64,000 bases of DNA from Ancylothrix sp. D3o (GTDB lineage Bacteria > Cyanobacteriota > Cyanobacteriia > Cyanobacteriales > Oscillatoriaceae): NCBI RefSeq assembly GCF_025370775.1, contig NZ_JAMXEX010000001.1, positions 372,001-436,000 on the forward strand, written 5' to 3'. Within the stretch, counting starts at the first letter, position 1, and the number at the start of each line of letters is the position of its first letter. Positions 26,343-37,383 of this stretch are shown here, piece after piece. Under the pieces are notes generated by a model. That model saw only the letters and a list, made by a program, of their open reading frames with translations, was not told where the DNA came from and did no database searches. The position numbers and the translations under genes are program-made.

Positions 26343-28853
26343 TTATCGACTTTCCCCGAAATAATCTTGTTCCAGCTTATTTTTTATTCTTTTAATCAAG
26401 CGTTGGCTTGCCTGTACCATACTTTCTTTAAAGTTTATCTTGGCAAGTTCGATGCTTTGTAAATCCCTAATATCTTGTCGCGCCAGCAGAAAATAAGTTC
26501 TCATCTCTCCTTTACCTTTGACTTGAATAATGCCGCGTTTTTCAAAAACATATTTATGGCGTAAAAGTCTATGAGTGGTATCGGAAATGTGAATTCGTCC
26601 GGGGCTGCCGTGAGATTCCATGCGCGAAGCAGTGTTAACAGTATCGCCCCACAAATCGTAAATAAACTTTTTGATGCCAATCACACCGGCCACCACTGGC
26701 CCGGAATGAATGCCAATTCGGATATTAAAATTAAGGTTATTTTGGGCATTAAATTCAGCAATTGCCCCTTGCATATCCAGCGCCATTTCTGCAATTGCTT
26801 CAGCATGATTAACACGGCGTTTTGGCAGTCCTCCCACCACCATATAGGCATCACCAATTGTTTTGATTTTTTCTAAGCCATAATGTTCGGTGAGCCGGTC
26901 AAAAGAGGAAAAAATTTGATTTAACAAACTCACTAAGGCTATCGGAGAAAGCGAGGAGGCAATTTCTGTAAAACCCACAATATCTGCAAACAAAACTGTT
27001 ACCGCTGCAAAACTTTCTGCAATCGTTGCGTGTTCTTGTTTGAGCCGGTCAGCAATTGCTTCGGGTAAAATATTCAGCAAAAGCCGCTCGGTTTGTTCCT
27101 GTTCGTGACGCAGCGCTTCTTCAGCTAGTAAACGTTGTGTAATATCTCGAAAAATTCCCCGCGTCGCCACCGGCTTGCCTTCGACAAATTTACAATTCAC
27201 ACTGCCTTCTACAAAGATTCTTTGGCCGGTTTTACTGCGAAATGCCGCTTGTACCCGCTGGCATTGTTCCCCAGAAATTACCCGTTGAAACATCTCTAAA
27301 CATTGCTCTTTGCAATCGGGATCTAACACCTCAAAAACGCTCATATTTGCGAGGTCTGCTTCGCTATAACCCAAGGTTTCTTTCCAGGCGCGATTCACAT
27401 AAATAAAACTGCCATCTGGGCCTACTGATTGAATTAAATCTGTGGCATTTTCAAATAAATCTCGATAGCGCTCTTCGCTTTCAACAAGGGCGATTTCGGC
27501 TCGTTTCCGCTTCATAAATTGCCCAATTTGAGAAGCAATAGCGTTCATTGTTTGCAGCAAATCTTGATCTGGTTGCTGGATCTCTCGGTGGAAGAAAACC
27601 ATCACTCCCAAAACTTCCCCATTGCTGAGTACAGGAATGCTAAATACTGTGTGTAAATTGTTTTCTTCTGCTACTTTTTTTCGCCTAAATAAGGGTTCTT
27701 GCAAAACATCACTCACCCACAAAGATGAGCGAGTTGCCCAAACATGACCCGGTAAATAGGCATCCCAAGCAAAGACTAAGCTTTTTGAAAATTCGATGAA
27801 TTCTCCACTAACGGCTGAGGGACGCGACCAAATTTCTGCACATTTGAGTATTTTTGAAGGTGGTAGGAAATCTCGATGTAGATTAAACTCGCCCCCGCGA
27901 TTTGGAGAAGTTTCTTCTACTATCCAAAACTCGCCAAGTGTCCAGCCTAACACCTCGCAAATTGCTAACAAAATTTTCGGGAGTGCTTGTTCAAAATTGG
28001 TAGCTTCTGATAAAATTCTGCCGATAGCATACTGTGCGGTTAAACGTTGCTGGGTGCGCTGGCGTTCTGTGATGTTTCGCCCAATGTAAATAATGTCTTT
28101 AAGACCGGCTTCTGTGTTGGCATTGCTATCGCTATCTGGGGCGATCCTAGAGCAAGAAAATTCAACGATAATTTTTTGGCCCGCTTTGGTATGGCAAACT
28201 AACTCAATATCTTTTAATAACTCTCCATCCCCTAAAATAGCCTCTTCCGCTATCAAATTTAAAAAATTTCTGTCGGCGATCAAAATTGAAATATTTTCGC
28301 CTTGAAGTTCTTCTTGTTCGTAGCCAAACAAGTTTTCGGCAGCGGGGTTCACAGATTTAATTTGTCCCGAATTTTTCGTCACCACCAAAGCTTCTGCCAT
28401 CGAGCTAATAATTTGATTGATATAATTGCGTGAATTTGATAACGCTGCTAACAAAAGATGCGTTTCATTAGAACTCTGCACCAATCTCTGCTCCAGCATC
28501 ATTCGATCTGTCACATCTTCAAAAAATACAATTAGTTTTTTTTCTTGGCTTTCTTCATCTTGGTATAAATTTACATAAAAATCAAGATATAAAGGCGCTC
28601 TATCGTTAGGAAACCGGCCAATGCTTTTTAACTCAAAACTTTTTTCTTCGCCGCAAAAAACGCCCTCCAGCAATTCTTCAGTGCCAATCAATTCAGGAAA
28701 ACCAACACGCACATCATTCCCCACACCTACCTCATCAGGACAATCAGCAAACCGCTTGACATCCGAAGATAGCTCTACAATCATCAAATTTTCATCCAAT
28801 GTCAGGTACTCTAAATGATCGGGGACGAATAATTTTTGTAAAACTTTTTTCAT
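26343..28853 (-). CDS. Class III adenylate cyclase with PAS and GAF domains
   Basis: 836 aa, no membrane segment. Order: an N-terminal module (1-130) shared with the next upstream gene, a PAS domain (about 140-265), GAF (285-455), PAS (460-585), a helical linker, and a class III cyclase domain (610-795). Metal-binding aspartates lie in LFADIVGFT and GDAYMV. The purine-selecting lysine (EKIKTIGDAY) and aspartate (YDLWGDTVN) point to ATP, and transition-state Asn and Arg are present in NTASRMES, so it should make cAMP. It ends 50 bp downstream of the kinase gene, in the same direction, so the two are probably co-transcribed. Confidence 0.9.
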   Translation of the reverse strand: MKKVLQKLFVPDHLEYLTLDENLMIVELSSDVKRFADCPDEVGVGNDVRVGFPELIGTEELLEGVFCGEEKSFELKSIGRFPNDRAPLYLDFYVNLYQDEESQEKKLIVFFEDVTDRMMLEQRLVQSSNETHLLLAALSNSRNYINQIISSMAEALVVTKNSGQIKSVNPAAENLFGYEQEELQGENISILIADRNFLNLIAEEAILGDGELLKDIELVCHTKAGQKIIVEFSCSRIAPDSDSNANTEAGLKDIIYIGRNITERQRTQQRLTAQYAIGRILSEATNFEQALPKILLAICEVLGWTLGEFWIVEETSPNRGGEFNLHRDFLPPSKILKCAEIWSRPSAVSGEFIEFSKSLVFAWDAYLPGHVWATRSSLWVSDVLQEPLFRRKKVAEENNLHTVFSIPVLSNGEVLGVMVFFHREIQQPDQDLLQTMNAIASQIGQFMKRKRAEIALVESEERYRDLFENATDLIQSVGPDGSFIYVNRAWKETLGYSEADLANMSVFEVLDPDCKEQCLEMFQRVISGEQCQRVQAAFRSKTGQRIFVEGSVNCKFVEGKPVATRGIFRDITQRLLAEEALRHEQEQTERLLLNILPEAIADRLKQEHATIAESFAAVTVLFADIVGFTEIASSLSPIALVSLLNQIFSSFDRLTEHYGLEKIKTIGDAYMVVGGLPKRRVNHAEAIAEMALDMQGAIAEFNAQNNLNFNIRIGIHSGPVVAGVIGIKKFIYDLWGDTVNTASRMESHGSPGRIHISDTTHRLLRHKYVFEKRGIIQVKGKGEMRTYFLLARQDIRDLQSIELAKINFKESMVQASQRLIKRIKNKLEQDYFGESR

Positions 28854-28903
28854 GTCGGCTCTTTATTCCCTACACCCTGATTTTTATCGAAGCTGATTTA
28901 AGT

Positions 28904-30427
28904 TTACTGCATAGTGTTTGTTTTGAGGGGCAAAATCACTTGAAACACTGTCCCTTTCCCTACTTCACTCCTCATTATAATTTCACCGCCGTGTAAATCT
29001 ACCGAGCTTTTAACAATTGCCAATCCCAAACCCGTACCAGAAATATTATTAACATTTCGACCCCGATAAAACGACTCAAAAAGTCTTTCTTGATCTTCTT
29101 TTAAAATACCCATCCCTTCATCTTCAATCTCAAAACTTACATTGTCTTGTTCTTGGCGCAAATCAAAACGTACCATCCCCCCTTGGGGAGAGTATTTAAT
29201 CGCATTTGAAAGTAAATTAACAAGAATTTGTCTGAGCAATTTTTCATCCACCCAACCAAAAACTTTTTCAGGAGGGCAGGTAAATTTTAGCGTATGTTTT
29301 TTGCTTTTGCTAAACTGCATTTCTGCAACAATTTCTTCAGAAAACTTTTTCACATCCAACAAGCTCGGATGAAACGTCAGCTTTCCGGCCTCAGCCTTAC
29401 TGAGCAGCAGCACCTCATCCAACATATCGGCCATCTGTCGGATAGCATTTTCGATCATTTTAAAATACTGCTGAACTTTTGGTTTATATTTGTCCGTCGT
29501 CTCATAAAAATTTTCTAATAACTCAACAGAAGTTAAAATAACTGTCAGCGGGGTGCGAAATTCGTGAGAAGTCATCGAAATAAAATTTGCCCGCATTTGA
29601 TTGAGTTCTTTTTGTGTCTCTAATGCCTTTTGGGTTTCGGCTTCTGCCCGTTTTCGCTCGGTGATATCCCTGCCAATATATACAAAATCTCGCTTCTCAA
29701 TGCCATCAGCCTGAATACAGGAACAAGAAAAATCTACTAAAAAATTATCGCCCTCTTTTTTGCTGCAAACTACTTCTCTATTCCTTAACAATTCCGAGCC
29801 GTTTAAACAAGGCAGTTGGTTTTTGATGTCGTCAATAAATTGCTGATCTTTAATCAGCAGCGAAACCGGCTGGCCGAGCAATTCTGCTTCACTATAGCCA
29901 AACAATTTTTGAGCCGCCGGATTAATCGTTTTTATTTGCCCCGAACTGGTTGTCACCAATAGGGCATCTGCCATAGAGGTAATAATTTTATGAATATAAT
30001 CTTGCGAACTCGCTAAAGCACTCACCAGCAGGCTTGCTTCATTGGCTCTTTGAACTAAAGCCTGCTTTAAAACCATGTTTTCTGTGACATCTTCTAACAA
30101 AATTAGCAGCAAAGGTTCAAGGGAAATTTCATCTTGATGCTGGCTGATATATAAGTCTATATAAAACGGCTTGTCTCCTTCTGCAAAGCGGGCAATTCCT
30201 TTTACTTCAAAGCTGGCTTTTTTCCCCTCGAAAACGGCCTTTAAAACTTCTTCAGCCCCAATTAATTCAGGAAAACTGGCCCGAACATCTTTACCCGGAG
30301 AAACTTCTTCGGGCCGATCAGCAAACTGCCGCACCGCTCTCGATGTTTCCAAAATCATTAAGTTGCGATCCACTGATAAATATTCAATGTGGCGAGGTGC
30401 CAAGAGTTTCTTTAAAAAAGGGTTCAT
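28904..30427 (-). CDS. PAS histidine kinase sharing the cyclase N-terminal module
   Basis: 507 aa, soluble. Residues 1-130 (starting MNPFLKKLLAPRHIEYLSVD) match the first 130 residues of the downstream cyclase closely, and the PAS domain after it (135-255) also matches. A HisKA domain follows with His288 in MTSHEFRTPL, then HATPase with EDEGMGI and GTGLGLAIV. No receiver is attached. A decayed GTPase gene lies 81 bp upstream on the same strand, and the adenylate cyclase lies 50 bp downstream, so this looks like an operon. The signal and partner are unknown. Confidence 0.88.
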   Translation of the reverse strand: MNPFLKKLLAPRHIEYLSVDRNLMILETSRAVRQFADRPEEVSPGKDVRASFPELIGAEEVLKAVFEGKKASFEVKGIARFAEGDKPFYIDLYISQHQDEISLEPLLLILLEDVTENMVLKQALVQRANEASLLVSALASSQDYIHKIITSMADALLVTTSSGQIKTINPAAQKLFGYSEAELLGQPVSLLIKDQQFIDDIKNQLPCLNGSELLRNREVVCSKKEGDNFLVDFSCSCIQADGIEKRDFVYIGRDITERKRAEAETQKALETQKELNQMRANFISMTSHEFRTPLTVILTSVELLENFYETTDKYKPKVQQYFKMIENAIRQMADMLDEVLLLSKAEAGKLTFHPSLLDVKKFSEEIVAEMQFSKSKKHTLKFTCPPEKVFGWVDEKLLRQILVNLLSNAIKYSPQGGMVRFDLRQEQDNVSFEIEDEGMGILKEDQERLFESFYRGRNVNNISGTGLGLAIVKSSVDLHGGEIIMRSEVGKGTVFQVILPLKTNTMQ

Positions 30428-30508: not shown

Positions 30509-30865
30509 TCAAACGGTACAATTTTGATTTTCCGACTTCAATGCCAGCATTTCTTGGCTCGGCTTTGCCTGCTTAACTTCAAGGAAATTAAAAACAAAAA
30601 TTAGCAAAGAAACCGCTCCGCTGGCTGCTCGCAAATAACTGACCCTCAGTCGGTTAAAAATCGCTTGTTTTAAAAACAAAATAATCAACGGTAAAACTCT
30701 TTTCTTCGTCAAATGAGCAGCGTCTAATTCCACAGTTCTGCAAAAATTTTTAACGCCCAATGTCGAAAGCCAAGAGCCTCCCATCAGCCAGTGTTCTACC
30801 CCACCCATCCGCGTATTTTTGCCAAAAAGTCCCATCAAGCATATTCCCTTAGATATCCTTTCCAT
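30509..30865 (-). pseudogene. Decayed Rab/Ras-like small GTPase
   Basis: The frame is open for 118 codons but reads as a broken copy of the intact GTPase at 33036-33551. Matching parts in order: ISKGICLMGLFG with ISKKMCMIGDFG; LSTLGVKNFCRTVEL with LSTVGVKISRKTVEI; LRVSYLRAASGAVSLL with GIAPTYLQGAAGVLVV. The P-loop has lost about two codons (GLFGKNTRM against GDFGVGKTS). The DxxG of switch II is gone. The C-terminal half with NKxD is missing. So it cannot bind GTP. It lies just upstream of the kinase and cyclase genes, where an intact GTPase may once have belonged to the operon. Confidence 0.75.
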
Positions 30866-31262: not shown

Positions 31263-32999
31263 ATGAAAAAAATTTTAGTCATAGAAGACGAGGATAGCAT
31301 TCGCAGTAACCTCCTAGAAATGCTCAGCGTGGGAGGATTTGAAGCCATCGGGGCAGAAAATGGTCAAGTCGGAGTGCACCTAGCCCGCCTTGAGCATCCG
31401 GACATAATTTTGTGTGACATAATGATGCCCCTCCTCGACGGTTATGGAGTTTTGAGTGCCCTACAACAAGATGCCCTCACTTCAACTATTCCCGTTATTT
31501 GTTTGACGGCTAAATCCGAGCGTTCTGATTTGCGAAAGGCAATGGAAATGGGCGCCAGCGATTACCTCACCAAACCCTTTACCCGCGTTGAACTGCTCAA
31601 AGCCATCAGCACCCAACTCGACAAACTCGACAAAATAAAGCGCATTCAAAATACCGCCGTCTCCGAAGCAATCTCGCACCTAAATGACTTGGTATATTAC
31701 GACAGTTTAACCAACCTGCCCAACCGGCTGGTGTTGCAAGACCGGTTTGAGCAAGCCCTCGCGCCGGTGTGGGCCACTCACACAGTGCCGGTGGCAGTCC
31801 TCAGCTTAGACCAATTTGATCGCCTCCACAGCAGCCTCGGAACCGATTACACCGATTTATTATTACAAGCTGTCCAAGAGCGAATTTCACCCTGCATCGG
31901 CACCAACGGCACCGTCGCGCGCCTCAACAGCGATCAGCTTGCCTTAATTTTGCCGCCGATTCTTGACAAACAAGAAGCCTCTGGGGAGGCGGTTTTAATT
32001 CTTAACAGTTTATCCACCGCTTTTAGCCTGCAAAAATATCAAGTTTTTATCACCGGCAGTCTGGGCATTTCCCTTTATCCCTCGGATGGCAACGATATTG
32101 ACAGCCTCCTCAAAGCCGCCAGCACCGCCATGAAAGTAGCCAAACAAAAAGGCGGCAATTGCTATCAGGTGTACAACCGGGAACTTCAAGAAAAATCCTA
32201 TGATTGTTTAATGTTAGAACTTGAATTACACACTTGCTTAGAAAAAAACCAACTTCAAGTTTATTACCAGCCCCAAGTTGACACCAAAACAGGCAAAATA
32301 GTCGCAGCCGAAGCCCTCTGCCGGTGGTATCATCCCGAAAAAGGTTTTATCCCACCCAGCGAATTTATCCCCATTGCCGAACAAACCGGCCTCATTACCT
32401 ATCTTGACCGCTGCATCTTGCAAAACGTTTGCCAACAACTAAAAATCTGGCGAAATGCCGGTTATGACCTCTCTATTGCCGTCAACCTTTCGGCGGCTCA
32501 ATTCCAACAAGCCAATTTAACTCAGCAAATTCTGGACATCCTCAAAGCCACCGCTGTTGACCCCCAATGGCTCGAATTCGAGCTAACAGAAACGGCAGTT
32601 GTCCAAAACCAAGAAACAGCCAAAACTACCCTTCAAGAACTCAAAGCTGCCGGTCTTAATCTCGCCTTAGACGATTTTGGCACCGGCTATTCTTCCTTAA
32701 GTTATTTACAAAATTTTCCCTTTGACTCAATCAAAATTGACCGCAGCTTTATTAATAACCTTTCCCAAAATTCCAAAAACACCGCCATTATCAACGCCAT
32801 CATTCAACTTGCCAGGAGTTTAAATTTAAAATCCATTGCCGAAGGAGTAGAAACCCAAGCTCAACAAGACTTTATCCGCCAGTGTGGTTGTGATCTCATG
32901 CAGGGTTATTGGTTTAGCCCTCCCGTTACCGCCGCAGCATTTGAAGAAATGTTAAAACAACAACAATACGGCACATTAAAGCCCATTGCTAACTATTAA
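31263..32999 (+). CDS. REC-GGDEF-EAL response regulator, probable c-di-GMP phosphodiesterase
   Basis: 578 aa. Receiver domain with Asp52 in LCDIMMPLLDGYG and a C-terminal KPF switch; GGDEF domain (about 140-310) in which the catalytic motif is NSDQL, so it should not make c-di-GMP; EAL domain (about 325-570) with EALCRW, NLSAAQF, ELTE, LDDFGTGYSS, IKIDRSFI, AEGVET and MQGYW motifs, so it should be active. The likely role is phosphorylation-controlled breakdown of c-di-GMP. It faces the intact GTPase gene across only 36 bp and points away from the decayed one. Confidence 0.92.
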   Translation: MKKILVIEDEDSIRSNLLEMLSVGGFEAIGAENGQVGVHLARLEHPDIILCDIMMPLLDGYGVLSALQQDALTSTIPVICLTAKSERSDLRKAMEMGASDYLTKPFTRVELLKAISTQLDKLDKIKRIQNTAVSEAISHLNDLVYYDSLTNLPNRLVLQDRFEQALAPVWATHTVPVAVLSLDQFDRLHSSLGTDYTDLLLQAVQERISPCIGTNGTVARLNSDQLALILPPILDKQEASGEAVLILNSLSTAFSLQKYQVFITGSLGISLYPSDGNDIDSLLKAASTAMKVAKQKGGNCYQVYNRELQEKSYDCLMLELELHTCLEKNQLQVYYQPQVDTKTGKIVAAEALCRWYHPEKGFIPPSEFIPIAEQTGLITYLDRCILQNVCQQLKIWRNAGYDLSIAVNLSAAQFQQANLTQQILDILKATAVDPQWLEFELTETAVVQNQETAKTTLQELKAAGLNLALDDFGTGYSSLSYLQNFPFDSIKIDRSFINNLSQNSKNTAIINAIIQLARSLNLKSIAEGVETQAQQDFIRQCGCDLMQGYWFSPPVTAAAFEEMLKQQQYGTLKPIANY

Positions 33000-33035: not shown

Positions 33036-33551
33036 TTATAACATTTTTGCCGCTAAATTATAAAAAATTTCATCTACACAAATCCCATCTTTTGCCGAAG
33101 TTGGATAAATAGCAACTACGCGCTCATACTCAGGATATCGTGCAATTCCCCGCAAGATTTCTAGTTTTTCTTCGTCCACTAAATCAGCCTTATTCAAAGC
33201 AATAATAATCGCGCCTTTAGGATTCACTGACGAAAAAAGTTTTAAGTGTTCGGGAATTCGCTCAATCGTTTCGCTGCGAGTCACATCCGCCACAACCAGA
33301 ACCCCAGCAGCCCCCTGCAAATAAGTAGGAGCAATACCCTTAAACTTTGTGTGACCTTCCAAATCCCAAATTAAAAGCTGCACATCCCGTTTTTCATTTT
33401 CGATAATTTCCACAGTTTTCCGCGAAATCTTTACCCCCACCGTTGAAAGATATTGATCGCTAAACTGACCGTCAACAAACCTGCGGATCAGGCTGGTTTT
33501 ACCGACGCCAAAATCTCCTATCATGCACATTTTTTTAGAAATAGTTCCCAT
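33036..33551 (-). CDS. Rab/Ras-like small GTPase
   Basis: 171 aa, close to a minimal Ras fold. G1 GDFGVGKT (12-19), a switch-I Thr in YLSTVGVK (Thr37), G3 WDLEGHTKF (62-70), G4 NKAD (120-123) and G5 TSAK (151-154) are all present. Histidine 67 replaces the catalytic glutamine of eukaryotic Rabs (WDTAGQ), so intrinsic hydrolysis may be slow or need an activator. There is no C-terminal prenylation cysteine. It starts 7 bp after the stop of the OmpA-like gene and is the last gene of that operon. Prokaryotic relatives include MglA and other Ras-like families. Confidence 0.9.
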   Translation of the reverse strand: MGTISKKMCMIGDFGVGKTSLIRRFVDGQFSDQYLSTVGVKISRKTVEIIENEKRDVQLLIWDLEGHTKFKGIAPTYLQGAAGVLVVADVTRSETIERIPEHLKLFSSVNPKGAIIIALNKADLVDEEKLEILRGIARYPEYERVVAIYPTSAKDGICVDEIFYNLAAKML

Positions 33552-33558
33552 AATTTAT

Positions 33559-36369
33559 TTACTTTTGTACTTCCTTACTTACCGGCTCAAATACAACACA
33601 CCGACTTAACAATAACGGTTGATTTGATCCCACATCCGCCGGCGGGTTGCCATTGCCAGCAATTTGTAAGCGTTTGGGATCGGCCCCCTGTTTTACCAGA
33701 GCATCTCTTACCGCTGTCGCTCGCAAAACCGCTATCCGCTGGTTGGCCGCCTTGTTGCCGGTGCTGTCACTGTGACCGATTATTTTAAGGTATTTTTGGG
33801 GATATTGATTCAAAAACTCGTTAATTTCCCTCAAGTTCTTTTCATAACCTGGATTTACTTTAGCTGATCCCGACTCAAAATAAATTCGGCTGGCAATATT
33901 GAGAGGATTAAGCTTCATCGTACTAACCACAGCTTTTACCCCCGGAATACTCGCAAAACCCCCGGTAATTTTTTCAGCATCAGCCATCTGCATTACCGTT
34001 CCCCATACGCTTACTTTTTGATCTTCAACTTTTGCAGAAATTGCCACCCCATTCATTTGATTAAAAACCGAAGTCAGCCGCTTTACTTCCGCCGCCATCA
34101 ACAAAGGATCAGGCGGAACCTCCACCGCTAAAATTTCATTTTCTAACTTCAATTCTCCCGCATTTAACCGCGCGATTTGTTCAGCTTTTGCTCGCATTGC
34201 CTCATTTGGCAATTGTCCGCTTAACTTTATCACTCCCCCTTCAGTATTCACATTTAAACGATACACAGCTAACTCTGGAGTAGATGCCAAAGCCGTCGCC
34301 GTTTTGGCTTGGATGCGCTGTTCAATACTGCGGCGATGCTCAGAGATTCCCCAAGGCACAAGAATTGCTGTTAAAACTGCTAAACCAATTACTATCAAAG
34401 CTAGGGGAGATTTGGGTTTTTTCTTCTTGTCTGATTCAATTCCCATCAACAGCGCCAGCCGCGCTTGCAGCGCATCAGGAATCGTCGAGGTATCCCCATC
34501 AAATTCTTCGATGGGCTGACCATAGTATAAAATAATTTTTCCCAAAGTATCACGCAGTTTTTCGATAAACTCTTTAGGGGCTTCTCCTTTTTCTATCACT
34601 GCCAAATAGCAATAACCGGCCACTTCTAAAATTATCCTAGAATCCCCATAATCGATTTGATTTAGCTCGGAAATTTCCCCTTTTTTCACAATACAATCAT
34701 TGACAAAGCTGCGAATCGCCGTCAACATCCCGGCCACCATTTCTGATTCTAGCTTTTCGCTATCACATCGCTGCGCTTCGCTTATCACTAAACCCGATGT
34801 TTTCTGAATTAAAAATACAGCTTGGACAGTAAAAGGAATCGATTCATGCAAAATTAATTCGGCTTCAGAAACTCCCTGCATTTTCGCTTTCAATTTTCTC
34901 CGCATTCCTTCCATACTAAAAGCATTTTCAACCTTTTTATTGATGGTGCGGATTGCCTCAGATAAATATTTAGCAATTGTACTCCCGATCACCGGATAAA
35001 GCGCATCTACCATTGCGTCTCTTTCCAGTTCTATTTGCCCTTTAATCGCCCTTCCCATTTCCGGCGCTAGGGTACTAATAATTTCGTCTCTGTCAATTCT
35101 AATTTGCTCACGAATGGCTTCCCCAATTTCCGGGCCAATAGCTTTGGCGATTTCTTTGGGAGAGTTGGTAATTTCTTGGGAAATAGCAGCTGGTAATAAT
35201 TCCCCAATAGCTGCACTCATCGCCTGTTTGTCCTGCTGGGTTCTTTCTCGAATCACATCATCAATAATCGGCACCAAGGCTTTAATAACTTCTTCTTTTG
35301 ATGCTGCCACTTTTAAACTGAGAATTTCGGCAATCCAAGGCACTAGCAAGCTAATTAATTCTTTGGAATCTGTGAGTTTATGCTCTAGTTGTCCTAGTTT
35401 GGTTTCCAGAATTTCTATCATTTCCCGCATCCCAGGCAAGCCGGTTTCTGCAACAAGCTTTTTCAGTTCGTCGAGTTGGGAAATTTGCGATCCCAGCAGC
35501 AAATTTTGCAACTGTTCGAGGGGATTTTCGGGGCTATTTGCTTGCACCATATTGGCGCTGTCAATATTTTGGTTTTGTTCTTCGCTGTCGGCAAAAAAGT
35601 TAATTATTTCTGTTTCTGGGGTTAGTTCGGGGGCGACAATTTTTTCTTGGTTGCTGTTAGTTAAAGTTTCACAGACCTCTAATTCCACCGGCTCCAATGT
35701 TTCTCTTTCTCTGTTTGCAGTTGTTTCTGATTCTGCTATTCCTCCCAACAGCAAACTGGAAAGTACCTCTCTAGTCATCTCTGAACTCAAAACCGGCCTT
35801 TCTTTGACTTGCTCTGGCCGGTTTCCCTGGGAAATTTCTTGAGCTTTTTCCCCCTCAGTTTTCAGACGAATTAGCCGATTTTGCCACCGCTCTAAAATCT
35901 CATCTAAAGCGCTTAAATCTGGCTGATAATCTATCGGCGCGTCGTCGTCACTTTTTAAAGTTTTTTCCGACACTTGGGCGGAGATTTTCAAATTTTCCTG
36001 CTTGGCCGGTTTCGAGGTATCTTCGCTTTCTTCTATCTCCCCAGACACACTGCCTATTTCTGGCTCTTTAACTTTGTCTATTTTACCGGATTCCTCCAGG
36101 CTGTTCAGGGGTTCAGGTGTTGCTAACCGCTTTTCAGAGGGTTCTTCGTTGTAAGCTTTACCGTTTGAAGTGTCATCGTATGAATCCGATGTAAAATCGG
36201 TGCCGGTGTCGCTGCTTTCTTGAACCGGCACAGGAGACTCTACACCCAGTAGCAAATTGAGCAAAGTTTCCAGATCAACCGTATGGGAATCTGGAGAGGC
36301 TGCCGGTGTAGAAACCAATTTTTCAGAATCTTCTTTAGCAAGAATTCGATTTTCTTCCGATAAAGCCAT
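33559..36369 (-). CDS. Membrane-anchored LC7-like / BON / OmpA protein
   Basis: 936 aa from the ATG at 36369, supported by AGAGG seven bases upstream; 20 more codons are open before it. Order: a long acidic disordered region (1-275) with short LxxLLLG motifs near 37-43, 204-210 and 288-294; amphipathic helical repeats (300-480); an LC7/roadblock- or longin-like domain (505-615) with AVFLIQKTSGLVIS and MVAGMLTAI; one TM segment (655-672, LALIVIGLAVLTAILVPW); two BON-like repeats (680-820); a C-terminal OmpA peptidoglycan-binding domain (825-935) with YFESGSAKV and IIGHSDSTG. So the LC7-like part faces the cytoplasm and OmpA the wall. It lies between a coiled-coil protein and a small GTPase. 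Confidence 0.85.
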   Translation of the reverse strand: MALSEENRILAKEDSEKLVSTPAASPDSHTVDLETLLNLLLGVESPVPVQESSDTGTDFTSDSYDDTSNGKAYNEEPSEKRLATPEPLNSLEESGKIDKVKEPEIGSVSGEIEESEDTSKPAKQENLKISAQVSEKTLKSDDDAPIDYQPDLSALDEILERWQNRLIRLKTEGEKAQEISQGNRPEQVKERPVLSSEMTREVLSSLLLGGIAESETTANRERETLEPVELEVCETLTNSNQEKIVAPELTPETEIINFFADSEEQNQNIDSANMVQANSPENPLEQLQNLLLGSQISQLDELKKLVAETGLPGMREMIEILETKLGQLEHKLTDSKELISLLVPWIAEILSLKVAASKEEVIKALVPIIDDVIRERTQQDKQAMSAAIGELLPAAISQEITNSPKEIAKAIGPEIGEAIREQIRIDRDEIISTLAPEMGRAIKGQIELERDAMVDALYPVIGSTIAKYLSEAIRTINKKVENAFSMEGMRRKLKAKMQGVSEAELILHESIPFTVQAVFLIQKTSGLVISEAQRCDSEKLESEMVAGMLTAIRSFVNDCIVKKGEISELNQIDYGDSRIILEVAGYCYLAVIEKGEAPKEFIEKLRDTLGKIILYYGQPIEEFDGDTSTIPDALQARLALLMGIESDKKKKPKSPLALIVIGLAVLTAILVPWGISEHRRSIEQRIQAKTATALASTPELAVYRLNVNTEGGVIKLSGQLPNEAMRAKAEQIARLNAGELKLENEILAVEVPPDPLLMAAEVKRLTSVFNQMNGVAISAKVEDQKVSVWGTVMQMADAEKITGGFASIPGVKAVVSTMKLNPLNIASRIYFESGSAKVNPGYEKNLREINEFLNQYPQKYLKIIGHSDSTGNKAANQRIAVLRATAVRDALVKQGADPKRLQIAGNGNPPADVGSNQPLLLSRCVVFEPVSKEVQK

Positions 36370-36432
36370 ACTCGAACCTCTGCGTGCGGTAGTTCCACCC
36401 AATACCCTCATCCTAACAATCAAAAACAAAGC

Positions 36433-37056
36433 TTAGAGAGTGTCATTTAAACCGTCATTTGGAGACTCAATCAGCCGCACATCGGTATAGAGATTTGTAT
36501 CAGCGGCTTGTTTAAGTTCTGGCACAAACTCAGTACCTTTTAGCTTCATCCCCAGTTCAAACAAAATTTCTGCCATATCATCGCGGGAAACTTTGGCATC
36601 CCGCATCACAGAAAGCCGGCCATTTAACTCATCAAAAACTTGATTTCTCAAAGAGCGGACATCTTCTTGCAGCCGGTCGCGGGTATCAGAAAATTCTTCT
36701 CGCATTAAATTAATTTGTTTATCTACCGATTCATCCAGAGATTCTATGGTAGTTGTAAATTTGCGATTAATCCTGTCAATTTGTTGACGTAAATCGGTAC
36801 TTTCTTCTTGACTAGATAAACTCAGAGATTTGAGTTTTTTCTCAAAAGATTCTATAGCAGCCCGCAGTTCCGTAGAAAGCACACTTTTTACCTGAGAGGC
36901 GTAGTCGTGCATTTCTTGCTGGAGCAGGGCAATATCCGACTCTATTTTTTCAAACCGAGAGCCATATTCTCTGAGTAAAGAACCAAAAAGAATATCGCGT
37001 ATTTGGTCTATGTTTCCCAATTTCTCGCGCATTTCTTCTTTTGTAATTTCTGGCAT
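36433..37056 (-). CDS. Coiled-coil protein, first gene of the GTPase operon
   Basis: 207 aa of mostly coiled coil (about residues 25-150), with no membrane segment or signal peptide. I do not recognise a family. An N-terminal IRDILFGSLLREYG (about 18-31) recalls the LxxLLLG motifs in the OmpA-like partner and may be an interaction point. I start at MPEITKEE, whose ATG has AGAGG seven bases upstream; the longer frame to 37101 lacks a ribosome binding site. The stop lies 63 bp before the OmpA-like gene. Likely a structural or adaptor subunit for the GTPase system, by inference. Confidence 0.75.
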   Translation of the reverse strand: MPEITKEEMREKLGNIDQIRDILFGSLLREYGSRFEKIESDIALLQQEMHDYASQVKSVLSTELRAAIESFEKKLKSLSLSSQEESTDLRQQIDRINRKFTTTIESLDESVDKQINLMREEFSDTRDRLQEDVRSLRNQVFDELNGRLSVMRDAKVSRDDMAEILFELGMKLKGTEFVPELKQAADTNLYTDVRLIESPNDGLNDTL

Positions 37057-37383
37057 TTTCGGGCCTCTAGTGTGTGGGTTTTTCTCAAATATTGGAGACA
37101 TAAGTTTAGAGGGGTAATAGAGTAAGCTATTGTCAAACGCTGTTTGGTTTTTTTTGATAAACTGCGCTTAGCTGCTGCTTGCTTCTTCTATACCATAAAA
37201 ATGTCCCAATGTAAGTAAATCATTAACGATTCTATTTTCTCATGTTTCTGTTAGTTTATTAAATTCCTTCACCGGCACGTTTTAGGCTGCCAATCGTCCC
37301 AGCGCCGATTTCTTCATGTTTTAGGACGATGGCAAAAGGCTACAATAGAAGAAAATCTTTACATTCATCAGTAATTTATTGTA

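Follow-up and report, generated by a model that had tools for sequence, protein, structure and literature searches.

The question that this locus raises is how a Rab-like small GTPase might be tied to the cell envelope of a cyanobacterium, and what such a switch would act upon. The locus lies in a 64,000-nucleotide (nt) stretch of the genome of Ancylothrix sp. D3o (contig NZ_JAMXEX010000001.1, positions 372,001 to 436,000; hereafter the window, to whose numbering all coordinates refer), where positions 33036-37056 hold, on the minus strand and in order of transcription, genes for a coiled-coil protein, a membrane protein with an OmpA domain (hereafter the LC7-OmpA protein), and the GTPase. An earlier note on this DNA, made from its letters alone, had described the three genes as co-directional and tightly spaced, and the open reading frame (ORF) map agrees, with 7 nt separating the stop codon of the LC7-OmpA gene from the ATG of the GTPase. 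By its sequence features, the cluster is a Group 1 Rup system and not a new one, and structure modeling assigns a roadblock/longin fold to the cytoplasmic domain of its membrane protein. The features of the triplet are as follows:

36433..37056, minus strand: coiled-coil cytoplasmic protein of 207 amino acids (aa) (ORF; orthologs in relatives; conserved N-terminal motif)
33559..36369, minus strand: predicted roadblock/longin-transmembrane (TM)-BON-OmpA protein of 936 aa (ORF; Pfam OmpA and BON; hydropathy)
34867..35052, minus strand: conserved helical region N-terminal of the roadblock core, LErdamVDALYPviGsti..Ym (near-invariant alignment columns; AlphaFold2 helix)
34507..34866, minus strand: predicted roadblock/longin core, residues ~502-621 of the OmpA-like protein, cytoplasmic (AlphaFold2 model; Foldseek against the PDB)
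34339..34416, minus strand: single TM helix, residues ~652-677 (Kyte-Doolittle maximum 2.48)
34153..34320, minus strand: BON domain, the better of two stretches, predicted periplasmic (Pfam PF04972, 8e-13)
33646..33882, minus strand: OmpA-like peptidoglycan-binding domain (Pfam PF00691, 5.3e-16; conserved GH.D..g....n..l...Ra motif)
33036..33551, minus strand: Rup (Rab-like) small GTPase of 171 aa (Pfam Ras; PDB matches; G motifs)

The GTPase is Rab-like, as had been noted before: it matches Pfam Ras (1e-29), its closest solved relatives in a PDB sequence search are Rab22/Rab5 (2e-24) and other Rabs, and all five G motifs are intact (GDFGVGKT, T37, WDLEGH, NKAD, and TSAK). The G3 residue at the position of Ras Gln61 is His (WDLEGH in the window) in 92 of the 113 GTPase genes in the fetched loci, some genomes being sampled twice, and Gln in only 6/113. 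Since a C-terminal cysteine is absent, the protein is probably soluble and dependent on a partner at the membrane. The computational survey that defined the Group 1 Rup GTPases (Wuichet and Sogaard-Andersen, 2014; PMC4316618) described them as devoid of the G3 Gln and linked to a coiled-coil protein, to a protein with a conserved domain, a TM segment, and an OmpA domain, and to an output protein, viz., a kinase or diguanylate cyclase/phosphodiesterase, whose N-terminus bears an invariant Gln. The conserved domain of the OmpA protein was left 'unknown', and the Rup GTPases were said to have no MglB-type partners, with none characterized (PMC4316618); a Group 1 Rup of Nostoc punctiforme was noted to be transcribed (PMC4316618). 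The window agrees with this description on each point tested (G motifs, absence of the G3 Gln, and gene types): it holds a single-domain Ras-superfamily GTPase with eukaryote-like G1-G5 and no Gln in G3, coiled-coil and domain-TM-OmpA neighbors, and output proteins with a Gln-bearing N-terminal domain. An MglA-family identity of the GTPase was rejected, as its G motifs fit the Group 1 Rup pattern without the G3 Gln and no MglB (Robl_LC7) was found in the genome. CyDiv, the one cyanobacterial candidate in the literature, was rejected as a different protein, and no later characterization of Rup, the LC7-OmpA protein, or cyanobacterial small GTPases was found in the open-licence literature. Rup GTPases are proposed to be bacterial sisters of eukaryotic Ras/Rab.

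The LC7-OmpA protein has the layout that had been ascribed to it, as judged by hydropathy and Pfam: exactly one strong TM helix, preceded by KKKKPK, which is consistent with an N-in/C-out orientation, followed by BON (8e-13, with two stretches) and OmpA (5e-16) domains. An alternative TTG start at 36429 would lengthen it from the 936 aa counted from the ATG to 956 aa. In the alignment of homologs the N-terminal 430 residues are poorly conserved and the block 440-620 is highly conserved; residues 440-650 match no Pfam, NCBIfam, or PDB sequence profile, and the region was resolved by structure modeling alone. From a 46-homolog alignment, AlphaFold2 models residues ~502-621 as α1-β1-β2-α2-β3-β4-β5-α3, with block-mean predicted local distance difference test (pLDDT) values mostly of 84-93, dropping to 64 in the loop that precedes β3, and a mean of ~90 over most of the core; the helix preceding the core is of low confidence (pLDDT <50 at model residues 11-31). 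Foldseek searches of the PDB with this core returned, at probability 1.00 and template modeling scores (TMt) of up to ~0.65, nearly exclusively roadblock/longin proteins, including Ragulator, Mon1-Ccz1, TRAPP, longin SNARE domains, a Streptomyces (S. avermitilis) roadblock protein, and MglB. Structure prediction thereby upholds, at the level of the fold, the earlier suspicion that residues 505-615 adopt a roadblock/longin fold. As these named matches are regulators or platforms of small GTPases, the predicted domain turns the most tightly linked partner of Rup into a concrete candidate for its regulator, and the assignment changes the 2014 picture of Rup as a family without an MglB-type partner. 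A Pfam Robl_LC7 search found no Robl_LC7/MglB protein anywhere in the genome, and this GTPase is its only single-domain Ras-like one; the two proteins are therefore each other's only visible candidate partners.

What the GTPase might act upon is suggested by two genes at 26343-30427, which encode dedicated enzymatic effectors that the earlier note had overlooked:

28904..30427, minus strand: effector 1, a histidine kinase with a PAS-coil N-terminal domain, a second PAS, HisKA, and HATPase_c (Pfam; orthologs come right after the GTPase in many relatives)
29993..30427, minus strand: PAS-coil N-terminal domain of the kinase, residues 1-145 (AlphaFold2; Foldseek; conservation)
26343..28853, minus strand: effector 2, with a PAS-coil N-terminal domain, GAF, PAS, and a class III nucleotidyl cyclase (Pfam Guanylate_cyc, 1.6e-70; sequence)

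Kinase and cyclase open with the same ~145-residue domain. Residues 1-143 of the kinase give no match to Pfam PAS; the AlphaFold2 model (pLDDT 90) consists of a PAS domain with a long C-terminal signaling helix, and Foldseek recovers PAS/LOV matches (2.7e-7), so that this N-terminus is modeled as a PAS fold plus coil. The motifs EKIKTIGD and YDLWGD suggest that effector 2 is an adenylate cyclase. Across the fetched loci, with some genomes counted twice, this domain is fused to 56 kinases, to a further 17 kinases that carry a receiver domain, to 46 cyclases, and to 3 GGDEF proteins. A domain that stays the same while the output behind it varies fits a docking site for the GTPase, and the PAS-coil is predicted to be the part of kinase and cyclase that reads it.

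Taking together the gene order, the roadblock and PAS-coil models, the G motifs, the match to the family, and the co-occurrence described below, we consider it probable that a wall-anchored roadblock platform recruits and regulates Rup, which in turn acts on the PAS-coil effectors. The OmpA/BON part would hold on to peptidoglycan or to the outer envelope, and the one TM helix would tie it to the cytoplasmic roadblock/longin domain. That domain, probably as a dimer, would serve the soluble Rup as both platform and regulator (guanine nucleotide exchange factor, GTPase-activating protein, or scaffold), and the coiled-coil protein would be an adaptor. GTP-bound Rup would then engage the PAS-coil domain common to the effectors and set the output of the histidine kinase and the class III cyclase. 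All protein contacts in this scheme are what we infer from the above, as are the direction in which the nucleotide state is controlled, the input from the envelope, and the physiological output. The wider proposition, that Rup working with a roadblock/longin platform on a peptidoglycan-anchored protein is a bacterial counterpart of the Ragulator/TRAPP-Rab pairings and conveys the state of the envelope to a cyclic-nucleotide/phosphorelay output via the PAS-coil, we hold to be about evenly balanced.

The distribution of these genes bears on whether they form a system at all. In the fetched loci, an LC7-OmpA gene lies ≤400 bp upstream of the GTPase in 97/113 cases, a coiled-coil ortholog precedes 92/103 LC7-OmpA genes, and the spacing between the genes is very short in most of these loci. 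In Microcoleus and its relatives the order runs coiled coil, LC7-OmpA, GTPase, kinase, cyclase, and the start of the kinase gene overlaps the stop codon of the GTPase; Mesorhizobium sp. WSM1497 has a matching order with a PAS-cyclase last. The linkage is thus conserved far beyond chance. Among 194 cyanobacterial genomes, LC7-OmpA occurs in 25 and single-domain Rup in 26, namely those 25 and G133 (GTPase matches inside 870-984-residue frames in G057 and G094 were left out of this count); the PAS-coil domain occurs in 25, every one of them a Rup genome, and the coiled coil likewise in 25, 24 of which have Rup. The overlaps of LC7-OmpA with Rup and of the PAS-coil with Rup each have a hypergeometric probability of ~1e-30, a figure that ignores shared ancestry and is indicative only. 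PAS-coil effectors encoded far from the operon (e.g., in G016 and G198) are still confined to Rup genomes, and of 72,556 plasmids the same 4 records match both the GTPase and the LC7-OmpA domain. One could suppose that these are functionally unrelated neighbors held together by shared ancestry, as a convergent gene parts the effectors from the triplet in the window; however, the order is kept across phyla, the spacing is mostly very short, and the genes are lost together over the 194 genomes, unlinked effectors included. This explanation is strongly disfavored, and we give it very little credence.

Several observations do weigh against the wall-anchored platform acting through Rup. None of the 46 LC7-OmpA family members matches Pfam Robl_LC7 (PF03259), of which the protein is not a member. 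The co-occurrence is partly due to shared ancestry. The window effectors lie ~2.6 kb from the GTPase, beyond one convergent gene, and are for that reason not co-transcribed with it. Finally, on contig C19 of G133 Rup adjoins a PAS-coil effector and the LC7-OmpA protein was not detected in that genome, so that the system does not need the platform in every case.

The last case also favors a reversed arrangement, in which the PAS-coil domains regulate Rup by providing in trans the catalytic Gln that it lacks, Rup is the output, and the LC7-OmpA protein serves for anchoring alone. That the missing Gln is supplied in trans was suggested in 2014 (PMC4316618). It would fit the absence of Gln61 from the GTPase and the near-invariance of Q122 (138/139) and Q126 (135/139) in the PAS-coil domains, whose invariant Gln we infer to be that of the published logo (PMC4316618). 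Q122 and Q126 fall, however, in the long C-terminal helix, at a position usual for a dimer coil. Moreover, the DxxGH motif of translational GTPases of the EF-Tu type carries a catalytic His, of which the His conserved in place of Gln61 in Rup is reminiscent; by this analogy, a Gln in trans may be unneeded or not the sole option. We regard the reversed arrangement as improbable, and slightly more so than the polarity switch considered next.

The earlier note had proposed a polarity or positioning switch. In such a switch, the roadblock protein tethered to the wall would mark a site and draw Rup to it, so that machinery for motility or division is placed there, on the model of MglA/MglB in Myxococcus. 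The structural premises stand: the roadblock fold is predicted, the architecture is wall-anchored, the genes are linked, and MglB is among the Foldseek matches. The genera listed for the 79 named loci are filamentous and mostly gliding, though the scan favors close relatives. Polarity itself has found no specific support: the GTPase is a Rup and not MglA, the genome has no Robl_LC7/MglB protein, the co-occurring dedicated PAS-coil kinase and cyclase point to an enzymatic signaling output, and the system is also found in rhizobia. Such a switch thus appears unlikely. Kinase and cyclase effectors with a common PAS-coil instead favor transmembrane signal transduction through the roadblock platform and Rup, closer to the actinobacterial conservons than to Myxococcus polarity.

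The conservons (CvnA-D; mfp conservon) likewise encode in a single operon a small GTPase, a roadblock protein, and a histidine kinase and form a G-protein-like membrane signaling complex, but their GTPase is of the MglA family and their MglB-type roadblock protein is separate and soluble, whereas here the GTPase is a Rup and the predicted roadblock domain is fused to TM-BON-OmpA. The MglA/MglB pairs of Myxococcus and Thermus polarity share a small GTPase with a roadblock-fold partner; the present system differs in its GTPase family, in having no Pfam Robl_LC7 match, in its wall-anchored partner, and in its kinase and cyclase effectors. Eukaryotic Ragulator/Rag, TRAPP, and Mon1-Ccz1 with their Rab/Rag GTPases, the best Foldseek matches, similarly join a Rab-like GTPase to a roadblock/longin platform, but are multi-subunit and reside on organelle membranes, the likeness being at the fold level only (~8-20% identity). 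With this assignment, a Rab-like GTPase would be paired with a roadblock/longin domain in bacteria as well as in eukaryotes; domains of this kind regulate Rab-type switches in human cells. Relative to Group 1 Rup as published, the roadblock/longin and PAS-coil domains are here identified, class III cyclases are frequent, and, in the window, two effectors stand apart from the triplet and a second GTPase has decayed. Likely new are the roadblock/longin identity, the PAS-coil at the N-terminus of the effectors, the frequency of class III cyclases among the outputs, and a conserved paralog without P-loop; none of these was found in the open-licence literature searched.

That second GTPase and the convergent gene lie between the triplet and the effectors:

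31263..32999, plus strand: receiver-GGDEF-EAL protein, convergent neighbor (Pfam)
30509..30865, minus strand: decayed second Rup GTPase, a 118-aa ORF without P-loop directly upstream of effector 1 (tblastn)

The receiver-GGDEF-EAL gene could have encoded the Group 1 output protein, but this candidate was rejected, as the PAS-coil domain has no match in it. Its convergent position is kept in L036, L039, L095, and other loci, despite which it probably stands outside the operon. In L036 and L039, from Oscillatoria/Kamptonema relatives, it separates two units, the first comprised of coiled coil, LC7-OmpA, GTPase, and a giant hybrid kinase, and the second of GTPase, kinase, and cyclase. The second GTPase (L036:6854-7420, minus strand; L039:17615-18193, plus strand) is full length and overlaps the start of the kinase gene, but has lost the P-loop lysine and the G3 glycine. 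Between these loci its ratio of nonsynonymous to synonymous substitution rates (dN/dS) is 0.43, against 0.18 for the intact paralog, and it is perhaps still constrained as a pseudo-GTPase subunit. The 118-aa remnant in the window has ~33-37% identity to the GTPases of the relatives (best E 2e-8, tblastn), and the giant kinase is gone from the window genome, which has only two PAS-coil matches; the intact window GTPase may now serve both effectors.

The coiled-coil protein, for which an upstream ATG at 37101 would give 222 aa in place of 207, has only generic matches in Pfam. It is marked by a conserved N-terminal motif, emReRlGNidqIRdiifG...rey..Rf, which reads IRDLLFG..YDRRF in Mesorhizobium. 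One homolog (G085 C1:3456780-3457547) occurs in a genome without Rup, LC7-OmpA, or PAS-coil matches. A divergent LC7 subfamily of ~590-605 aa is found in family f33 (L159, L160, L161, L165, and L166), where it accompanies a more divergent Rup (~40% identity); the translations of L159-L161 have an OmpA-like C-terminus and are, by eye, closer to the Mesorhizobium version. The f33 loci suggest that one cyanobacterial family has two parallel Rup systems.

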